From contig JAEINQ010000006.1 in the NCBI GenBank assembly GCA_016342285.1, forward strand, positions 62,001 to 126,000: 64,000 nucleotides of DNA. Direction: 5' to 3'. The stretch's first letter is position 1, and each line of letters starts with the position of its first letter. Shown in pieces: positions 30,151 through 40,935 of the stretch. The notes beneath the pieces were generated by a model. That model saw nothing but the letters and a program-made list of their open reading frames with translations. It was not told the origin of the DNA and did no database searches. The translations under genes were made by a program, and so were the position numbers. Source of the stretch: Desulfobacterales bacterium. Lineage in GTDB: Bacteria > Desulfobacterota > Desulfobacteria > Desulfobacterales > JAEINQ01.

Positions 30151-31212
30151 TCAGCCGACCACGGTCTTGACGGTCTCGGTGGAACTCATGGCCCTGACCA
30201 TGGCGCTGTAGCCCATACGAAAGGTCAGAACCGAACCGACGGAAAAGGCGGTGGCGGCATCGGTCACATCGCAGATGGTATAGTTGGAGGTGGCCCCGAT
30301 AACGCGCACGCCGGCTTCAAGGGGGGTCAGATCGTAGGCATCGACGTCAACCATGCCAAAATTCATCAGGACCAGATGGCGGTCTCCGGCATTTTCGAAA
30401 ACCACCTGTCTCCCAAAGGCATCGGTGCCGGTCTGGCCCTCCGGCAGGGACGGTTTGAGACCCGATTCCAGAATTTCGCCGCAAAAGCAAAAGGCATCCT
30501 GATGCAGGCCGTCGATGGCGGTACGGGTGGGCGGCATCTCGCCGACCCAGACGGCCGCACCAATGCGAAGTTGGGTGATGCCGGCCGGCACCCGTCCCTG
30601 GCGGACCAGGTCCAAAAGCATGGTCCCGCTGCCAACGGAAAGCACATCAAGGGCCAGCCCCGTATCGTTTCTCACCCCAAGGGCTGTGGCCACCAGACGC
30701 TCCAGGTCCGCCAGGCCAGCACGATAGCCGCCGTAGCACCCCACGCTGGCCCCCAGGCCGACCAGGCAAACATGGGGGATTTGAGCCACCTCGCGGACCA
30801 TTTCAGATACGGCAACCGGCAGGGCGCCTTCCCGGCGATTGCCCACGTCAATCATGAAAATCAGGTCATGGGTAATTCCCAGCGATCCGGCCGCTTTGCC
30901 AAGCCATCGGGCATGGGCCGGGTGGGAGATCAGGGTGGTATGGGCCGAACGGACTGTTTCCCCAGCCTGTTGGGCGCCGGAAATTTGGACCCGCATCACT
31001 TTTCCGGAGAAGGCCCGGCGCAAGCGGGCCAGATTGGCGGGGCGAACGTCGCCGAGAACCTCGTCGGTATGGACGGTCAGGTCGGAAAGAATCGGATCGT
31101 AGGCCTGACAGCCCTTGGTGATCCAGACCGGCTGGAGGCCCGCCTGTCGGCAAAAGCCGCGGATGGTGGCGAGGTTCTCTCGTATTTTCTCCAGGTGGAC
31201 GAGAACTTCCAT
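30151..31212 (-). CDS. Alanine-racemase-like PLP enzyme (ornithine/Asp racemase group)
   Basis: About 353 residues with the alanine racemase N-terminal fold and the PLP lysine in WITKGCQAYDP near residue 40. Sequence features such as GDVRPANLARLRRAFSGKVM and IDVGNRREGALP match the group that includes ornithine racemases and YhfX, which have a reduced C-terminal domain compared with Alr. It would interconvert D- and L-forms of an amino acid; the substrate is unknown. GGAG lies in front of the ATG at 31212; the track start at 31311 lies inside the repeat. It lies about 310 bp from the sensor-MFS gene. Confidence 0.82.
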   Translation of the reverse strand: MEVLVHLEKIRENLATIRGFCRQAGLQPVWITKGCQAYDPILSDLTVHTDEVLGDVRPANLARLRRAFSGKVMRVQISGAQQAGETVRSAHTTLISHPAHARWLGKAAGSLGITHDLIFMIDVGNRREGALPVAVSEMVREVAQIPHVCLVGLGASVGCYGGYRAGLADLERLVATALGVRNDTGLALDVLSVGSGTMLLDLVRQGRVPAGITQLRIGAAVWVGEMPPTRTAIDGLHQDAFCFCGEILESGLKPSLPEGQTGTDAFGRQVVFENAGDRHLVLMNFGMVDVDAYDLTPLEAGVRVIGATSNYTICDVTDAATAFSVGSVLTFRMGYSAMVRAMSSTETVKTVVG

Positions 31213-31525: not shown

Positions 31526-34030
31526 TCACCCCATCGAAGCAGACCGGGCCCGCCGCGAGAGGAGAAAAAATAACAAGGTGCCGACGAGGTAAATCATGCC
31601 CAGGCTGCTGATGGCCGATGTCAGCCCCACAGCCGTGATCATACCGCCAACGATAATGGGTCCGTTGATGTTGCCGATCCGTTCCAGGGAGTTGAAGGTG
31701 CCCATGGATTTGCCAACCCCGACGGCCTGAACCGTCGGCGACTCGCTGATGAAAGAAATCCGGGCGCCGTAGCTCATCCCGCCGGAAATACTGAACAGCA
31801 CCAGGATCAGGACGAACATGGGAATGGAGTTGAGGTAGTAGACGCTGAGCAGGGCCAGACCGCCAAGTATGCCGCCGGCCACCACGGGAATGCGCTTGTT
31901 GGCAGCACGGTCCACCCAGCGGCTGATCATGGGGGCCACGTATACCATGCACAAACCGTAGGGCATCATCAACCGCGCGATGTTGCCCTGCCCCACCCCC
32001 AGGTCCGTCAGAAAGAGCGGACTGGCAAAGTAGAGAAACCCCACCAGGCACAGGGAGGACGGAATGGCGCTCAAGAGCAGGCCGCCCATGAAATCAACAC
32101 TGGTAAAGAGCTTGAAGATGCCCGGTCCGGCCTGGCCCGAAACCGCCGTGGCCGGAGCTTCGGATTTCCCGGCATCCCCGGTCTTTCGCAGAAAGATCAG
32201 GACAAAAATCATGGAAATGAAGATCAGGACGCTGCCCACAAAAAAGACGCCCCGAAAACCGATCTTTTCCGCCAACATACCGCCCACGGCGGTGCTGGAA
32301 ATGAACCCGGAGAAAAAACCGGCTTCCAGTCCGGCCACCGCGGCGGAACGCTGACCGATGGGGCTCAGGCTGATGACGACGGTCTGGGTGGACATCAGGG
32401 CCAGGCCGTAGCCGAAACCGACCAGACCGCGGCACAGAATCAGTTCCATGGTGCTCTGGGCCATGCCGCAGGCAACCATGCCCATACCCGTGATCAGGAC
32501 GCCGGTCAGAAACGGGCCCAGCCAGCCGCGCCGGTCCAGCCAGTACCCGCCCAGCACCAGGCTGACGGCCACGGCCAGCATCTCCGCGGAAATGGGAAGC
32601 CCCATGGCAATTTCCCGGGAAAGCCCAAAAAAGCCCGTGAAAAGGGAATTGGCATAGATGGGCAGAAAAGACATGGAGAGCGCCATGGCAAATGCGTAGA
32701 GGAACGCGGCAGTGCGGACCGAACTGCTCACCGGTACCGTTGCGGTGCCGTTGGTTTTCTTCTTGTAATGGCCGATGGTCTGGTCCATGGGCACGGTCGG
32801 GGCATCCCCTGTGGCCAAAATGGCCACCAGAAAAAAGACGAATTCAAAGGCGATAAGAAGGGAAACCACCGCCACGGTGCCCGAGTCCATCACCAGATCG
32901 CGAATGGTCTTGGCGACCACCGCGTCGGAGATGTTCAAATGGATATATCCTTCGGTCGTTTTTCTGCCGGCAACCGGAAGGACAATGCGGTTGGCATCCA
33001 GGTCCGGGTTTCCGGGATCCGGTGCATGGACCTGGAATCGTGATCGGCTCACATCGACATCGGAAGCCACCCGGTAAAGCGGTCCGCCGTTGGCATCGAC
33101 AATGGTCACGTCAGACAGGGCGGGAATGTTGTCCAGGACTTCCTTGAGCAGTCCGTCGATCTTGATGAGTTTGTTGACGGGAATGCCCAGGTTGAGCAGG
33201 TACTGGATGTCCGACTGAAGAAGCCCTCCCAGGGTCCGGCACTTGTCCTGAATGTTGCCGAAATAACGATCCCGGAATTCCTGAACATTGTAATAGGAAA
33301 AACCGATCTGGGAAAGGATCAGCACCAGGGAGGTGAGCAGCAGTGCCCGTGTCTTTAAGGGGATACCGTAAATGCGGCTTTTTTTTCTCTTGGTGGGCAT
33401 AACCACCAGGCCGACGAAAAAGAAGATCACGGCCGAGGCGCCGCTGGCAACGGCCAGGAGTTTGCCGCTGGTGGCGATCATCGCCTTGATCTTATCCTGT
33501 ATCAGGGTCTCGGGCAGGACGATCTCCAGGAATCCCTGAAAGGTCTTGTTCCTGAATCCACCGCCGTACAGGGGGAAAAGGAGCCGGTACTTGTCCTTGA
33601 CCTGCCGGACGGTCTCCTGCTCACCGATGTCCTTTTCCAGGGTCAGGCTGTCCTGCTGGGCCAGGTTCAGGGCATGAAAAGCAAAGAGCGGCGTTCGATC
33701 CTCCGAGCAGATGAAGATTTCCGATATCTCCGGATTGGCGGTCCTGAATTCATTGAGCAGTTTCGGCATGCCGGTAAACTTGGGCAGGGTCTTGCCAAAT
33801 TTAAGCGACCGTTCGATTTTTCGAACGTAATACCGGCCGATGACGCTGTATTCTGACAGCAACGACTTGGAATAGATCTTTTCCAGGGTCAGCACCGACA
33901 GGGCCGCGTTGAGCAGCAGGGCAAAAACAAGGGTGCCGGTGACAAAGATGGTGATCCGAAGAGGGACGGATGCGAGTCGGGACCGGCTACGTGAGGTGTC
34001 GGATAGGGCGCTTGGCGCGGGACGGTTCAT
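31526..34030 (-). CDS. MFS transporter fused to two N-terminal extracytoplasmic sensor-like segments
   Basis: The 834 residues split into three parts. Residues 24-47 and about 190-211 are membrane helices that flank a soluble segment of about 140 residues; helices at about 229-248 and 385-406 flank a second one of about 140. Residues 440-830 are a 12-helix MFS carrier (LGGYWLDRRGWLGPFLTG motif; CRGLVGFGYGLALMSTQ). The paired segments look like Cache-type ligand sensors (for example YNVQEFRDRYFGNIQDKCRTL). Fusion to an MFS is unusual. It could be a ligand-gated carrier, and the neighbouring binding protein could deliver ligand. Function is inference; fold call moderate. Confidence 0.78.
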   Translation of the reverse strand: MNRPAPSALSDTSRSRSRLASVPLRITIFVTGTLVFALLLNAALSVLTLEKIYSKSLLSEYSVIGRYYVRKIERSLKFGKTLPKFTGMPKLLNEFRTANPEISEIFICSEDRTPLFAFHALNLAQQDSLTLEKDIGEQETVRQVKDKYRLLFPLYGGGFRNKTFQGFLEIVLPETLIQDKIKAMIATSGKLLAVASGASAVIFFFVGLVVMPTKRKKSRIYGIPLKTRALLLTSLVLILSQIGFSYYNVQEFRDRYFGNIQDKCRTLGGLLQSDIQYLLNLGIPVNKLIKIDGLLKEVLDNIPALSDVTIVDANGGPLYRVASDVDVSRSRFQVHAPDPGNPDLDANRIVLPVAGRKTTEGYIHLNISDAVVAKTIRDLVMDSGTVAVVSLLIAFEFVFFLVAILATGDAPTVPMDQTIGHYKKKTNGTATVPVSSSVRTAAFLYAFAMALSMSFLPIYANSLFTGFFGLSREIAMGLPISAEMLAVAVSLVLGGYWLDRRGWLGPFLTGVLITGMGMVACGMAQSTMELILCRGLVGFGYGLALMSTQTVVISLSPIGQRSAAVAGLEAGFFSGFISSTAVGGMLAEKIGFRGVFFVGSVLIFISMIFVLIFLRKTGDAGKSEAPATAVSGQAGPGIFKLFTSVDFMGGLLLSAIPSSLCLVGFLYFASPLFLTDLGVGQGNIARLMMPYGLCMVYVAPMISRWVDRAANKRIPVVAGGILGGLALLSVYYLNSIPMFVLILVLFSISGGMSYGARISFISESPTVQAVGVGKSMGTFNSLERIGNINGPIIVGGMITAVGLTSAISSLGMIYLVGTLLFFLLSRRARSASMG

Positions 34031-34087
34031 GGGTGCGAAGGCTATGTGTCCTGTCTATCGGTTCGTATCAGAAGTCCTGTCAACCCG

Positions 34088-34870
34088 TCAGCGCCGGGAA
34101 CAGACGTAAAAATCGAACGGCAACGGTTCCCCATCGAGTCGATCGAGGATTTCGATCTCCTTAAATCCGCACCGGCTCAACTCGGCGGTCAGGTCCTCCC
34201 GATACAGGGCACGGTAAACCATTTGCCGGCAGGCCACGTCCCATCCGCCATCGTTTTCCTTGAGAAAAAAGACGTTGAAACGGACAAGGCCGTTCTCCAG
34301 GTAATCCCATACATCGAAGACGATCACCCGCCGCCCGTCGACCTCATGGAGGTGCCGGGGGTTAAACCGGGTCTTTTGCGCCAGGATCCGCTCAAAGTTG
34401 CGGATACTGATCACACAAATCCCCGATGGTTCGATCCGGCGGGCCATCTGGCCCAGCGCGGCACGGACGTCTTCCGGTGTCAACAGGGCCGGCAGGGAAT
34501 TGTCGCAACTGATGACGGCATCAAAGGTTTTCGACACCGTCTGGTCAAGGTGCCGCAGGTCGGCCTTCGCAAATTCGATATCCAGGTTAAACCGGGCGGC
34601 CTCTTGCCTGGCCCGCTGAACCGATTTCCCGCTGATATCCGTGCCGGTGACCCGGTACCCCAACAGTCCGAGGCCGATGCTCTGGGTGCCGATACCGCAG
34701 GTGCAGTCCAGAACGGTCTGGACGGGACTGCCGGCATAGCGGCGAAAGAGGGCATCGAGTTGCCGCCCCTGGCTTTTCAGATCTTCTTTCCAGTCGCCCA
34801 GCAGCAGATCGTATTCATCGGCGAGCTGGTCGAACAGCGCCTCCTGGTTGACGTTCCCTATATCGGTCAT
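34088..34870 (-). CDS. Class I SAM-dependent methyltransferase (unknown substrate)
   Basis: A Rossmann-fold methyltransferase of 260 residues with motif I VLDCTCGIGTQSIGLGLLG and motif II region VTGTDISGKSV. The sequence FDAVISCDNSLPALL (motif IV) and later LRFNVF-like strands resemble glycine/sarcosine-type or tellurite-class methyltransferases, but the substrate is not resolved. The track start is 14 codons early; the ATG at 34870 (MTDIGNVNQEALFDQLADEYD) has CCGGAAG upstream. It lies between the sensor-MFS gene and the binding-protein gene, both on its strand, with 57- and 110-bp gaps, so co-transcription is plausible. Confidence 0.82.
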   Translation of the reverse strand: MTDIGNVNQEALFDQLADEYDLLLGDWKEDLKSQGRQLDALFRRYAGSPVQTVLDCTCGIGTQSIGLGLLGYRVTGTDISGKSVQRARQEAARFNLDIEFAKADLRHLDQTVSKTFDAVISCDNSLPALLTPEDVRAALGQMARRIEPSGICVISIRNFERILAQKTRFNPRHLHEVDGRRVIVFDVWDYLENGLVRFNVFFLKENDGGWDVACRQMVYRALYREDLTAELSRCGFKEIEILDRLDGEPLPFDFYVCSRR

Positions 34871-34980
34871 AATCTTCCGGAACTTTAGCCGGCTGCTAAA
34901 AAACGATTGCACTCATGACGTTTTTCAACACCCTGTTAGGGGTCACCGTCGCAGGGGCTTGAATCGGCCCTGGGACAGCA

Positions 34981-36120
34981 TCAATCGGTGAAAATTTCGT
35001 CCGCGGCCCCAAGGATGTCCACCGGGGGATCAAACCCGATCTGCTGGGCTGTCTTGAGATTGATGGCGATCTTGGCCGGGTCCTCAAACAGAATCGGCAG
35101 ATCGCGCGGCTTGGCACCGTTTAGAATCTGGGCAATCTTACGGGCGTGGTATTCCGCCACATATTTAAAGCCGCTGGTGGCGATGCTCAACAAGACACCA
35201 TCGCGCACCTCGGCCGAGCCGGTCTGGGAAAAAGTCGGAATGCCTTTCTGGTTGAGCACCTCGACCACCTTGGGCAACGACTCGTTGTGCAGCCCGAGCT
35301 GTTGGGTCAGGTAGAAGGCGTCGATGTCCGGCGTCATCTTCCGGATCGTGTCCAGCAGCCATTTCTCGGCCTCCGGCTTGGATTTGAAGTAGCCGGGATG
35401 GGATTTTTTGATGATCTCGAACCCTCTCTCGGCGGCAATCTTTTCCACATCGGCGATGGCCGCATAACTCTTGCCTTCAACGGTATCTTCAAAGGCCATG
35501 CCGAGCTTTCCGAAGCCGATAATGTCGTGGAACATGCGCATCTGGCGCTGGTAGCGCAAGGGATCGACCCGGGCCGTCAGGTTGTTCCGGCCCGAATCTT
35601 CATTGGAATCGACGATCTTGGCACCCAGGGAGTCGGAGACGTCCATGACCACCGCCGGCACCCTCATCTCCGGCGGCATGTTCTTCATATCCTGTCCGGC
35701 CCAGGTTCCCATGGCAAAGACCAAGTCAAAGTCCGACCGTTTAAGGATCTGCTGCTTGTTGTGCAGCCGTTTTTCGTCCTTCCAGTCGCCGTCGTAGAAT
35801 CCGTCTTCGGGAAACTCCAGGTAATTACTCCAGCTGGGATTTTTGGCCAGATAGGCGTACAACCCCTGGGCCGAGGTGGCTTCGGAGGACGGAATCTGGA
35901 TATTTTCCATCCACCCCAGGCGGCGAAGCTGGGTAATCACGGCCAGAAAGACCGTGTCGTACTCGAAATACGGCCCGCCCTGAAGGTAGATGACGCGAAA
36001 TTTCTTGCCGTTGGCTTTTCTCTTGGGGGTCACCGGGAAATCCTTGGCCATGGCAGCGGTAAAAACCGACAAGGCCATCACAACAGCAAGAAAAAGAGAA
36101 ATCAGGGGCAATCTTTTCAT
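34981..36120 (-). CDS. ABC-type substrate-binding protein (PF04392/TrpX-like), without permease or ATPase
   Basis: A secreted protein of 379 residues with a signal peptide (MKRLPLISLFLAVVMALS, then AAMA) and the ABC_sub_bind fold, recognisable from VIYLQGGPYFEYDTVFLAV, MEASTAQGLY-like text and PVDILGAADEIF. Members bind small hydrophobic or aromatic ligands in the periplasm. No ABC permease or ATPase gene is adjacent. Instead, a methyltransferase and an MFS carrier with sensor segments follow on the same strand, so it may deliver ligand to that carrier or act as a sensor. Start from the ATG at 36120 with GGAGGA upstream. Confidence 0.84.
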   Translation of the reverse strand: MKRLPLISLFLAVVMALSVFTAAMAKDFPVTPKRKANGKKFRVIYLQGGPYFEYDTVFLAVITQLRRLGWMENIQIPSSEATSAQGLYAYLAKNPSWSNYLEFPEDGFYDGDWKDEKRLHNKQQILKRSDFDLVFAMGTWAGQDMKNMPPEMRVPAVVMDVSDSLGAKIVDSNEDSGRNNLTARVDPLRYQRQMRMFHDIIGFGKLGMAFEDTVEGKSYAAIADVEKIAAERGFEIIKKSHPGYFKSKPEAEKWLLDTIRKMTPDIDAFYLTQQLGLHNESLPKVVEVLNQKGIPTFSQTGSAEVRDGVLLSIATSGFKYVAEYHARKIAQILNGAKPRDLPILFEDPAKIAINLKTAQQIGFDPPVDILGAADEIFTD

Positions 36121-36347: not shown

Positions 36348-38669
36348 TCAATCCTGAAGAGACTTCAGGGCGGCATTGGTGTAGACCAGTCGTTCAGCGA
36401 GCAGGCAGGCGATAAATCGATGGAATTCGGCAGCAATGTCAGGGGCTTCCTTGCGCATCCGGCCAAGGGCGTCGCCGGACAGGCAGTAGACCGTGGTAGG
36501 CCGGTCCGCAACCACCGATGCGGACCTCGGCTCGTCCAGGTAGAGCCCGATCTCGCCGACCACCGTACCGGGCTGCATGGTTCGCAGACGGATCGTCTTG
36601 CCGTCATCGGTTTCCAGCAGCGTCGTCACCTGGCCCGACTCGATGAAAAAGAGCGCATCGGCCGGATCACCCTGCCGCATCAGAAAGGCGCCGGCATCGA
36701 TGGTCTGCTTGACAAGGTAACCCATGAGCCGTTCAGCCAGGTCCGGGTCGGTAAACAGGCGCCTGACCCGCTGGGCCAGCAGGCCGTCAACCGGCAACGC
36801 CTGGGCATGCACCCCGGCCAGGACCGCATCCTCACACCACTCCAGACCCCGATCCAGGTCGGGAAAAAACCGGACCCGGCCTCCGGGGTCATCGACCAGA
36901 CCACCTTTTTCCAACCGCCGGCCAATGGCACCGGAGAGATGGGTTAAAACCAACCGGACCCCGTCGGCCTCAGCCAGTTGACGCATTCGAAGGAAACTGT
37001 ATACCGCCGAAGCGTCCAGGGCCGTCACCCGGTTAAAATCGAACACCGCGTAGCCAAGGGGAGCGCTCCCCCCGTCTCTAACGCGGCAGCGAAACGCTTC
37101 CAGCAGGGTGCTGGCCGTCCCAAAAAAGATAAACCCCTGAAGTTTGAAGACATGGATGGCTTCGCCGTATGCCTTTAGCAATCGATGTTCTTCCTCGCTA
37201 CGGTCCACGTTGCTGCGGTGAACATCCCCGGCCAGGGCATGTTTGATCACGTCAATGCGGCTGTAGTCCACGACAAAAAGCGCCACAGCGGCCACCATCC
37301 CGACCGCCAGACCGGCCATGAACCCCCAGAGCACAATGACCAGCAGAATCAGGACCACGATGCCGTAGTCCATGGGGGAAAGCCGGAAATAGGCATCCCA
37401 CAGCCATTCCCGGAGAAAGGAGAAGCCGAGAAACATCAGCAGGCCGCCGAGAACCGGTTTGGGAAAGAGATGGAGCAGCGCGCTACCGAAGATCAGGGTC
37501 AGGGCGCACAAAGCCGCCGACACCAGCCCTGGAATGCGGCTGCTGTCCGGACTGATCTGGCGACTGAGCACGGTGAAGGTCATGGACTGGTAACCGATGA
37601 TCCCCCCACCTATCCCCGCCAGCAGATTGGCCACGCCGGCTGCCTTGAGCTCACGGTTCAGGTCGATATCCTTGGCCACGGCCAGTTCAAGGGCGCTGGC
37701 CGAAAAGAGCAGATCCACAACGCTGATGACCAGCAGAGCGGGCAGGGCATGAAATATCACCGTCATATGAGGCCATGAGACCATGAGGCCACCGGCGGCA
37801 AAGCCTTGGGGCAGCCAGCCGGTCGAAGCAAACGAAGGGGCCAGCAACCCCCTGGACACGGCATCAACGGTAGAGAGACCCATTAGGGAAAGGAGGCCAT
37901 AAAACAGACCGATGGCCGATACGATCAACACCGGCATGACCATCAGATGGTTATACCGGGCCAGCACCACCAAAAGGACCAGGGCAAAGATCAAACCGGG
38001 TACCCATCGCAGAGCGATCCCGGGTGCCCCCAACAGGGCCAGGTTGGACGTGGCCAGGGGAAGATCGGTCATGACCCGCATGGCCCCCTGAACCAACAGC
38101 CACCCGGTGCCGGCAAGGAACCCGCCAAAAACAGGATAGGGAACAAACCGCACCATGGCACCCAGGCGCAGTTTTCCCAGCAGAAGCAGAACAACGCCGG
38201 TGCACAGGGTGGTGCCGGCAAGGGCGGCCATCACCGTCATACAGAGTCGGCCGGCAGGAACGGCGTCGGCAGCCAGATTCCCGGCCAGGGCCGCGGCCAT
38301 GAGGGCAGTCAGGGCCGCCGGCGCGCTTTGGGGAACCAGGATGGTTCCGGGGAGCGAACCGGTCAGGGCGCCGGCCACGGAGACCACGGCCGCACCCAGT
38401 AAAATCACCCGAATGGCCACGGGAAGAAAAGGGCTCAAAGGGCCTGAAAAAATCAAAGCGGCCAGGGAAAGCGATAGGGTCACGGCCAGGCCGCCCACCA
38501 CAAATCCGGCCGTTACCCGCGACACAATGCTTCCGGAAGGCTGCAACTGGCGAGCATGATCGGTCAAGGGAATCCCCATGAATGTGGGAGAGAAAAAACG
38601 TAAGCGTTCACAGGGCACCGCATCTGTTTTGTTCCCGGGCATTTGAAGACCAATAGAGTACGTCTGCAT
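36348..38669 (-). CDS. SulP anion transporter with STAS and cyclic-nucleotide-binding domains
   Basis: An inner-membrane SulP-family carrier (773 residues from 38669, or 743 from the ATG at 38579). It has about 12 helices (PYPVFGGFLAGTGWLLVQ; IGGGIIGYQSMTFTVLSRQ), a C-terminal STAS domain (about 520-620, AVFDFNRVTALDASAV) and a cNMP-binding domain (about 660-740, FFIESGQVTTLLETDDGKT, GEIGLYLDEPRSASVVA). It would move sulfate, bicarbonate or another anion, possibly gated by cAMP or c-di-GMP-related ligand. GAGGCG precedes the track start. A palindrome covers the stretch between the two possible starts, which favours the shorter form. Lone gene. Confidence 0.85.
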   Translation of the reverse strand: MQTYSIGLQMPGNKTDAVPCERLRFFSPTFMGIPLTDHARQLQPSGSIVSRVTAGFVVGGLAVTLSLSLAALIFSGPLSPFLPVAIRVILLGAAVVSVAGALTGSLPGTILVPQSAPAALTALMAAALAGNLAADAVPAGRLCMTVMAALAGTTLCTGVVLLLLGKLRLGAMVRFVPYPVFGGFLAGTGWLLVQGAMRVMTDLPLATSNLALLGAPGIALRWVPGLIFALVLLVVLARYNHLMVMPVLIVSAIGLFYGLLSLMGLSTVDAVSRGLLAPSFASTGWLPQGFAAGGLMVSWPHMTVIFHALPALLVISVVDLLFSASALELAVAKDIDLNRELKAAGVANLLAGIGGGIIGYQSMTFTVLSRQISPDSSRIPGLVSAALCALTLIFGSALLHLFPKPVLGGLLMFLGFSFLREWLWDAYFRLSPMDYGIVVLILLVIVLWGFMAGLAVGMVAAVALFVVDYSRIDVIKHALAGDVHRSNVDRSEEEHRLLKAYGEAIHVFKLQGFIFFGTASTLLEAFRCRVRDGGSAPLGYAVFDFNRVTALDASAVYSFLRMRQLAEADGVRLVLTHLSGAIGRRLEKGGLVDDPGGRVRFFPDLDRGLEWCEDAVLAGVHAQALPVDGLLAQRVRRLFTDPDLAERLMGYLVKQTIDAGAFLMRQGDPADALFFIESGQVTTLLETDDGKTIRLRTMQPGTVVGEIGLYLDEPRSASVVADRPTTVYCLSGDALGRMRKEAPDIAAEFHRFIACLLAERLVYTNAALKSLQD

Positions 38670-39618: not shown

Positions 39619-40041
39619 ATGGCCAGAAGACTGCTATTCGCCCTGTTAGCCGGTTGTCTGCTCTTTTTTGCGACTCAGACCCTTGCCGCTGACCCCTGCA
39701 CCGATCTGCTGCGCCGGGCCATGCGCATGGAAGGACTGACCACCGAAGAGATTGGAGGCATCTGCAAAACCGCCGCGTCGCTACAGACCGACCGGCGACC
39801 GGAAATCACGGCCGAGCAGATTGAAAAGGACATCGCCGGAAAGATGGTCAGTTCCTGGATTTTCCAGAAAAGCGAATGGCGCGACATCGACATCCTGGAA
39901 AGCAAGTACGACAAGGATCACGCCACCATCACCATCAATGTGGACACCATCCGAAACAAAACCGGAAGCTTGCGTCTTCGATACCGATGGGTCGACGGCA
40001 GATGGAAACTGCTGCGGATATTCAACATCGATTTCGATTAA
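39619..40041 (+). CDS. Small secreted protein, 140 residues, unknown function
   Basis: Signal peptide MARRLLFALLAGCLLFFATQ ends around ALAA, followed by a mature domain of about 120 residues: first a helix with two Cys (DPCTDLLRRAMRMEGLTTEE and GGICKTAAS), then beta-strands (ATITINVDTIRNKTGSLRL, WVDGRWKLLRIFNIDFD) of the kind seen in NTF2-like or SnoaL-like folds. The track start is 95 codons early; GAGGAGGACCC precedes the ATG at 39619. It is followed 12 bp later by a second secreted protein, so they are almost certainly one operon. Confidence 0.75.
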   Translation: MARRLLFALLAGCLLFFATQTLAADPCTDLLRRAMRMEGLTTEEIGGICKTAASLQTDRRPEITAEQIEKDIAGKMVSSWIFQKSEWRDIDILESKYDKDHATITINVDTIRNKTGSLRLRYRWVDGRWKLLRIFNIDFD

Positions 40042-40053
40042 GGGAGAAAGTCC

Positions 40054-40632
40054 ATGAAACCGTTGCATCTCATCGTCGCCACGCTGGCGATCGCCATTTT
40101 CGGATTCAGCCCGCTTGCAGGGGCGGTCGATCTCAACGGAAGCAAAAAGCAGGAAATGGAACGCGCCCTGGTGGGCGACTGGCAGGTGCCTGAAAACAAG
40201 TACAAGACCACCATCACCTTCGGGTTTACCAAGCAACGGATCTTTGATTGCCAATACCAGGATCAGGACAAGGAGCCGGAGGCCTGGTCCGGTCACTGGC
40301 GGGTACGCACCGCCAACACCGGAGACGTCAAGGCCTATCTCAGTGCCCGCAGCCAGAGCGATCCGGGAAAATACATGAAGGCCGTAGTTCAAACCGGCCC
40401 CAGGATGGAAAATTTCGCCATAGAGATCACCTTTGATTTCAAGGGAGACAATTCGTGGGAATGGCAGTCGAAACTGGTCAAAGCCGACGAGGAATCCGAC
40501 GATATGGGCGAAGACGAAGAGGACTTCGAAGATGACGATGAGGACTTCGAAGACGACGATGAGGACTTTGAAGACGACGATGAGGACTTTGAAGACGACG
40601 ATGAGTACTTTGAAGATGACGAAGACACCTAA
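40054..40632 (+). CDS. Secreted protein with acidic heptapeptide repeat tail
   Basis: 192 residues with a signal peptide (MKPLHLIVATLAIAIFGFS, then AGAVD), a beta-rich domain of about 120 residues (WQVPENKYKTTITFGFTKQR; DIQGHW-like WSGHWRVRTANTGDVKAYL) resembling DUF-type lipocalin folds, and an extremely acidic tail of five DFEDDDE-like heptads. The tail could bind Ca2+ or other cations or basic partners outside the cytoplasm. GGAGAAAG upstream supports the start at 40054. No known family is assigned. Confidence 0.72.
   Translation: MKPLHLIVATLAIAIFGFSPLAGAVDLNGSKKQEMERALVGDWQVPENKYKTTITFGFTKQRIFDCQYQDQDKEPEAWSGHWRVRTANTGDVKAYLSARSQSDPGKYMKAVVQTGPRMENFAIEITFDFKGDNSWEWQSKLVKADEESDDMGEDEEDFEDDDEDFEDDDEDFEDDDEDFEDDDEYFEDDEDT
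40519..40623 (+). repeat. 21-bp in-frame tandem repeat, five units
   Basis: The unit GAGGACTTCGAAGATGACG and its variants run from 40519 to 40623; each unit encodes EDFEDDD. Units 2 to 4 differ from one another by a single silent change (TTC to TTT). Unit number could vary by slippage. Confidence 0.85.
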
Positions 40633-40652
40633 AGCTGAAACAACGACTGGGG

Positions 40653-40935
40653 GTAAAGAATCCAGGCCCAAAGGACCAGTCTTTGGTTTGCCCCTGGAAG
40701 GGGGCTGTCTTGTATGCATGAAGTTCGAAGTGCCTAATCCGCTAAAAACCAGCGGACAAGAATTAAGGAATTCTGCCATGTCTTAGCTTAAAAAGAGCCG
40801 GAGCGAAGCGACTCCACCATTTTAGGCATTTCAAACTTTAGCGCATTTTAGGCATTTGCCAGCGATTCTATCGGGATAGCCAATTTACCCTGGCCACGCC
40901 CACAGGACATGGATTCCAACTGCGGATTGAAAAGC
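40653..40935. repeat. R3 element, copy at 40.7 kb
   Basis: Blocks in order: GTAAAGAATCCAGGCCCAAA, GAAGTTCGAAGTGCCTAA, AATTAAGGAATTCTGCCATG, GGAGCGAAGCGACTCC (a short hairpin), the inverted AAACTTTAGCGCATTTTAGG, and the end CCACGCCCACAGGACATGGA. Copy 46.94-47.24 kb has the same blocks in the same order. The final block runs into the start region of the next gene. Confidence 0.8.

Follow-up and report, generated by a model that had tools for sequence, protein, structure and literature searches.

TRAP and TTT systems are binding-protein-dependent secondary transporters, and in the D-cycloserine (dcs) and bacilysin (bac) operons an MFS exporter is encoded together with a racemase/epimerase or an amino-acid ligase. 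We know of no sensor segments or binding protein belonging to the dcs and bac carriers, nor of a docking site for a binding protein on the MFS fold. LuxP, the partner of LuxQ, comes from a binding-protein family other than PF04392. Binding proteins dock on the sensor domains of chemoreceptors, kinases, cyclases and Ser/Thr kinases, a mode of action described as general, and carriers are not among the receptors listed (PMC9602780).

The locus analysed here resembles LuxP–LuxQ (PDB 2hj9 and 1zhh) in combining a periplasmic binding protein with a membrane-bounded, predicted tandem Cache/PAS-type domain, the likeness in docking resting on gene linkage and fold similarity. However, the output of LuxQ is a kinase whereas that of our protein is an MFS carrier, whose sensors, unlike LuxQ, are two single modules with TM helices between them. 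With TrpXYZ-type ABC systems the locus shares a binding protein of the same superfamily, but it has no permease or ATPase nearby. TRAP and TTT systems are similar in concept, since in these too a periplasmic binding protein works with a secondary carrier, although their membrane proteins are unrelated to the MFS protein with built-in sensors described below. The likeness to dcs and bac is one of gene content, the enzyme sets being different. Our literature search, which left most subscription papers outside its reach so that novelty is unproven, found no description of a Cache–MFS fusion or of an MFS protein with a PF04392 partner.

An MFS carrier preceded by two predicted Cache-type sensors

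The window, the 64,000-nucleotide stretch of Desulfobacterales DNA that was analysed, encodes an 834-residue protein on the minus strand (31526..34030; ATG at 34030, stop at 31526). Its sole Pfam match is MFS_1 (E=2.7e-28, residues 441–768, 99.3 bits against a cut-off of 33.4), lying within an MFS part that spans residues 437–827. Hydropathy peaks at residues 26–44, 192–210, about 225–243 and 386–404 enclose two soluble stretches, each about 140 residues long, after which the MFS helices follow. The open reading frame, Pfam and hydropathy thus bear out a sequence-only reading of this DNA, which had described an 834-residue protein with two membrane-bounded segments of this size ahead of an MFS domain. 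Since four TM helices, an even number, precede the MFS part, its N-terminus is expected to be cytoplasmic as in ordinary MFS proteins, which would place both soluble stretches in the periplasm. A motif-A-like loop, G-x-W-x-D-R-x-G-W, is conserved across the carrier family and the MFS core motifs are kept. The nearest solved MFS relatives are one importer (DgoT, for D-galactonate) and one exporter (EmrB), so the direction of transport cannot be read from sequence. At one homologous locus (L111) two successive open reading frames each match the sensor–MFS profile, reflecting either a tandem copy or a frameshift.

To the two soluble segments (segment 1, residues ∼48–190, 33461..33889; segment 2, residues ∼250–384, 32879..33283 and adjoining the carrier; both minus strand) we assign a single-Cache-like fold by AlphaFold/DSSP and Foldseek. 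An AlphaFold model of residues 18–432, built with 20 homologues and of moderate confidence (pLDDT 76.5), shows the single-Cache order twice: a long helix rising from the membrane, a helix, four to five strands (five in segment 1) and a membrane helix. When the whole tandem, rather than each half separately, was scored with Foldseek, the matches were the extracellular domains of WalK (target TM-score 0.67–0.68), KinD, LuxQ alone and in LuxP–LuxQ complexes, TlpA and TlpC, the LuxQ periplasmic domain being among the top structural matches. No Pfam Cache profile matches residues 1–430 of the carrier even at E-values up to 1, and a PDB profile search with the sensor region gave no match. The failure of the Pfam Cache models indicates a divergent Cache-type group. 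On this moderate-confidence model both segments are predicted Cache-type sensors, and the sensor fold on which the sequence-only reading depended is thus supported by structure prediction for each of them and by Foldseek for the tandem.

Segment 2 of the window matches segment 1 open reading frames of homologues (E∼1e-6), which is consistent with an origin by duplication, as judged from sequence. Moreover, segment 1 is a separate open reading frame in L054, L058, L060, L061, L062 and other loci; because the first sensor is its own gene at many loci, the sensor and carrier parts appear modular.

The binding protein belongs to an insertion-bearing PF04392 subgroup

Upstream of the carrier lies the gene for a periplasmic solute-binding protein of family PF04392 (ABC_sub_bind; 34981..36120, minus strand, 379 residues, ATG at 36120; E=4.7e-14, 52.7 bits against a cut-off of 25.9). 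Its sequence carries a signal peptide and no lipobox. The distance to the carrier start is 951 bp, with a methyltransferase gene in between, in agreement with the spacing of about 950 bp and the intervening methyltransferase reported earlier. That the binding protein lacks an ABC permease or ATPase, also claimed then, is upheld by a motif scan of open reading frames and by profile searches of contigs. No ABC ATPase motif pair occurs in window open reading frames longer than 150 residues, and of the 23 BPD_transp_2 (PF02653) matches in the window's genome none lies on a contig bearing a PF04392 gene. PF06541 is absent from the whole genome, although it is probably the wrong permease family for TrpXYZ. 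A canonical ABC partner from either family was accordingly rejected.

The protein also scores far below the TrpX equivalog (59.5 bits against a cut-off of 390), and the adjacent permease and ATPase that mark a TrpXYZ-type importer are missing from the window, whereas the positive controls L158–L160 show both. Among relatives, ABC-linked PF04392 proteins (L157–L160) adjoin an ATPase and usually also a membrane protein, and they score apart. Orphan PF04392 proteins of the same and related genomes instead adjoin HAMP histidine kinases, GGDEF proteins or a dCache chemoreceptor (L153, L155, L161–L164, L169, L170 and L172), and a Cache domain is recognised in several of these sensor neighbours. The window's subgroup is further distinguished by an insertion of 35–40 residues which, over the N-terminal third of the alignment where it was read, is absent from ABC-linked PF04392 proteins, a difference that also sets it apart from TrpXYZ-type systems. 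The insertion recurs at L164, where the PF04392 protein adjoins a chemoreceptor, and at L169, where it adjoins a kinase. Orphan status, sensor neighbours and the insertion together form the pattern that would be expected of a sensor co-receptor. At L164 (455–3464) the insertion-bearing binding protein is followed directly by the dCache chemoreceptor, and this short stretch holds no carrier gene.

Carrier and binding-protein genes are conserved neighbours

The carrier family is present in 35 of 194 genomes of the order and in 19 of 394 genomes of the phylum, the latter set having been drawn for at least 90% completeness. The 57 named loci come from Desulfobacterales, Syntrophobacteraceae, Desulfovibrio and relatives, SAR324, Hahella, Marinobacter, Oxalobacteraceae, a Bacillota MAG and others; the weakest, L129, is probably an ordinary MFS protein and was excluded. 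A non-redundant set of 77 homologous loci, gathered by carrier sequence, was obtained at 80% identity, with genes called as longest open reading frames and several contigs ending near the locus. The sensor region is recognised by profile in 64 of the 77.

A PF04392-type binding protein lies within 8 kb of the carrier at 58 of these 77 loci, against about 1% expected by chance from a density of ∼0.6 PF04392 genes per Mb. The possibility that the fusion and binding-protein genes never occur together elsewhere is therefore clearly false. At the remaining 19 loci, several of which are cut by contig ends, no nearby binding protein was found. Before redundancy removal, the pair shares a strand in 49 of 69 paired loci. 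Same-strand genes overlap or lie no more than 21 bp apart in 15 loci, and in six of these, counted over the listed arrangements with the binding protein downstream or upstream, the overlap is exactly 4 bp, a sign of translational coupling. Distance matrices of binding protein and MFS are correlated (Mantel r=0.69, 0 of 2,000 permutations as high; species phylogeny was ignored). At some loci the binding protein adjoins a SpoIIE/dCache sensor, a possible alternative partner.

Amino-acid-modifying enzymes accompany the carrier

The gene between carrier and binding protein encodes a 260-residue SAM-dependent methyltransferase (34088..34870, minus strand), with a homologue at the same place in a second, syntenic locus (L037). 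It is closest to glycine/sarcosine N-methyltransferases: these are its closest solved relatives (E=6e-14), although it reaches only 80.6 bits against the equivalog cut-off of 350. Directly downstream of the carrier is a PLP amino-acid racemase (Ala_racemase_N; 30151..31212, minus strand; PLP-lysine motif ITKG) that the sequence-only reading had overlooked. The nearest NCBIfam of this racemase is ornithine racemase Orr, of which it is a superfamily relative rather than an equivalog (232 bits against a cut-off of 480); a PDB search with it gave no match.

Such enzymes recur across the family. Of the 77 loci, 28 have a racemase/epimerase (DapF-like, Orr-like or Alr-like) close to the carrier, and 45 have either this or another modifying enzyme. 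The other kinds comprise the N-methyltransferase of the window and L037, a GCS2-like enzyme (L046, L048, L056, L064 and L089), a D-Ala-D-Ala-ligase-like enzyme (L081, L083 and L086 of SAR324; also L078 and L079), AstA-like and alanine-dehydrogenase-like enzymes (L059/L107), and GNAT-like enzymes that have no Pfam match and were recognised by a motif and by the similarity of their profiles to one another. In L055 (3840–7478) a DapF-like epimerase and the sensor–MFS carrier form a natural fusion of 1,212 residues. Most of the DapF-like proteins in the clusters are additional to a canonical dapF, which is found elsewhere in six of eight examined genomes having such a cluster gene (the other two are partial assemblies with none clear), and 17 of 18 keep both catalytic cysteine motifs.

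Enzyme type, hand-assigned from a profile census, follows the carrier tree with 9 changes against 25.1 after shuffling (0 of 200 as low), indicating a tendency for the genes of the cluster to be inherited together. This is consistent, at the level of sequence, with the carrier handling the product of the enzymes. The Mantel and tree tests would nevertheless fit functional coupling and joint inheritance of the cluster alike, and do not separate the two.

Two uncharacterised families, CL3 and CL7, also belong to this set of modifying enzymes. CL3 (∼500 residues; L049, 5947–7527, and about 20 relatives in alignment A4) is a recurrent partner of racemase and carrier. It has no Pfam or NCBIfam match, and the PDB yielded nothing convincing by sequence or by fold (AlphaFold pLDDT 92); a weak fold lead to TyrRS (E=0.08) was not used. 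In a Sutterella MAG the CL3 gene is duplicated in tandem (L113, 1662–3161 and 3169–4689). CL7 (∼410 residues), which has no Pfam match and by eye is possibly a ligase, directly follows the carrier in one clade (L042, 6966–8198; L039, L041, L058 and L102).

A proposed make–export–sense module

A widespread, conserved set of carrier, binding protein and amino-acid enzymes suggests a little-known route by which cells produce an amino-acid derivative, export it and sense it. In the module we propose, cytoplasmic enzymes would make a modified amino acid, using the PLP racemase and the glycine/sarcosine-type N-methyltransferase in the window and, elsewhere, a DapF-like epimerase, Alr, a D-Ala-D-Ala-ligase-like, GCS2-like or GNAT/AstA enzyme or the ∼500-residue family. 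The MFS domain would export this product, and the periplasmic PF04392 protein would bind it or a related amino acid. Like LuxP on LuxQ, the binding protein could then dock on the pair of Cache segments, from which the signal would pass through the fourth TM helix directly to the carrier and set its activity; as the protein has no further output domain, the carrier is the likely direct target of the segments. We give this reading of the genes and predicted fold, production of an amino-acid derivative and its export by a carrier regulated through a LuxP/LuxQ-like binding-protein sensor, an even chance of being correct.

The same conserved pairing of carrier and PF04392 protein could instead serve binding-protein-dependent uptake, with the binding protein first picking up an amino acid or D-amino acid and, once docked on the sensors, handing its ligand to an importing MFS or opening it; the enzymes would then convert the ligand. 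TRAP and TTT provide precedents for binding-protein-dependent secondary transport, and racemases would suit D-amino-acid uptake. However, the cluster enzymes are mainly of biosynthetic rather than catabolic kinds (N-methyltransferase, D-Ala-D-Ala-ligase-like, GCS2-like and acyltransferases) and fit product export better than nutrient uptake, and the MFS fold has no known site on which a binding protein might dock; we consider uptake unlikely. The sequence-only reading, that the binding protein may present ligand to the sensors and gate the carrier, is thus partly supported: it gains from the predicted Cache folds and the conserved, co-varying PF04392 pairing, and also from the orphan PF04392 proteins beside sensors and the published docking of binding proteins on receptor domains (PMC9602780), while nutrient uptake as its purpose fits the accessory enzymes less well than export does.

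A role as receptor or transceptor, in which the MFS part is a second receptor or relay and SpoIIE phosphatases or dCache kinases encoded nearby receive the output, as in cell–cell signalling, seems quite improbable. SpoIIE-type dCache-HAMP phosphatases were found by profile near 21 of the 77 loci, an overcount since the SpoIIE profile includes Cache/HAMP (one example is identified by Pfam), and guanylate-cyclase-like, GGDEF and Ser/Thr kinase neighbours occur at other loci. Against this, no such signalling gene stands beside the carrier in the window or L037, two-gene loci without a signalling protein exist, and the family as a whole keeps the MFS core motifs. That the binding protein is a chance neighbour, or has its ABC or sensor partner elsewhere, leaving the MFS to work alone, could be argued from the 951-bp gap with its methyltransferase and from the ability of orphan binding proteins to serve distant partners, but is strongly disfavoured and highly improbable given the 58 of 77 paired loci, the 15 overlapping or near-touching pairs, the correlated divergence and the absence of BPD_transp_2 permeases from PF04392 contigs.

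Returning to the regulated exporter, we tentatively propose, at rather less than an even chance, a class of carriers whose transport is under external control: a periplasmic binding protein dedicated to the carrier would dock on the tandem Cache sensors built into it. Self-made amino-acid derivatives would be both cargo and signal, so that receptor and exporter are one protein acting in cell–cell signalling or product feedback. If true, a secondary carrier would join the outputs of binding-protein docking, and bacterial physiology would gain MFS transport under allosteric control. A further implication would be unexplored products derived from amino acids; for at least one of the enzyme families concerned (CL3) no solved relative was found. 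The two-gene loci allow the idea to be tested directly in vitro.

Conserved surroundings of the window locus

The window and L037 share the gene order SulP, binding protein, methyltransferase, MFS, racemase, MltC and EamA, and their MFS proteins are 62–63% identical. The window genome (G000) has an estimated contamination of 8.5%; the synteny in L037 supports the locus and led us to reject an assembly chimera. The SulP-type permease with STAS and cNMP-binding domains (36348..38669, minus strand) occupies the same place in L037 and occurs at three loci in all; it is a conserved upstream neighbour of the binding protein and probably not part of the core. An Rfam search found no RNA element, and a promoter scan gave scores no better than shuffled sequence. 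Terminator-like sites exceeded shuffles yet fell mostly inside genes, and were left unused. Elsewhere in the window, the open reading frame at 39781–40779 contains a short repeated hydrophobic motif, VFKVLIVVFKVLIVV, and is probably spurious or repeat-derived.
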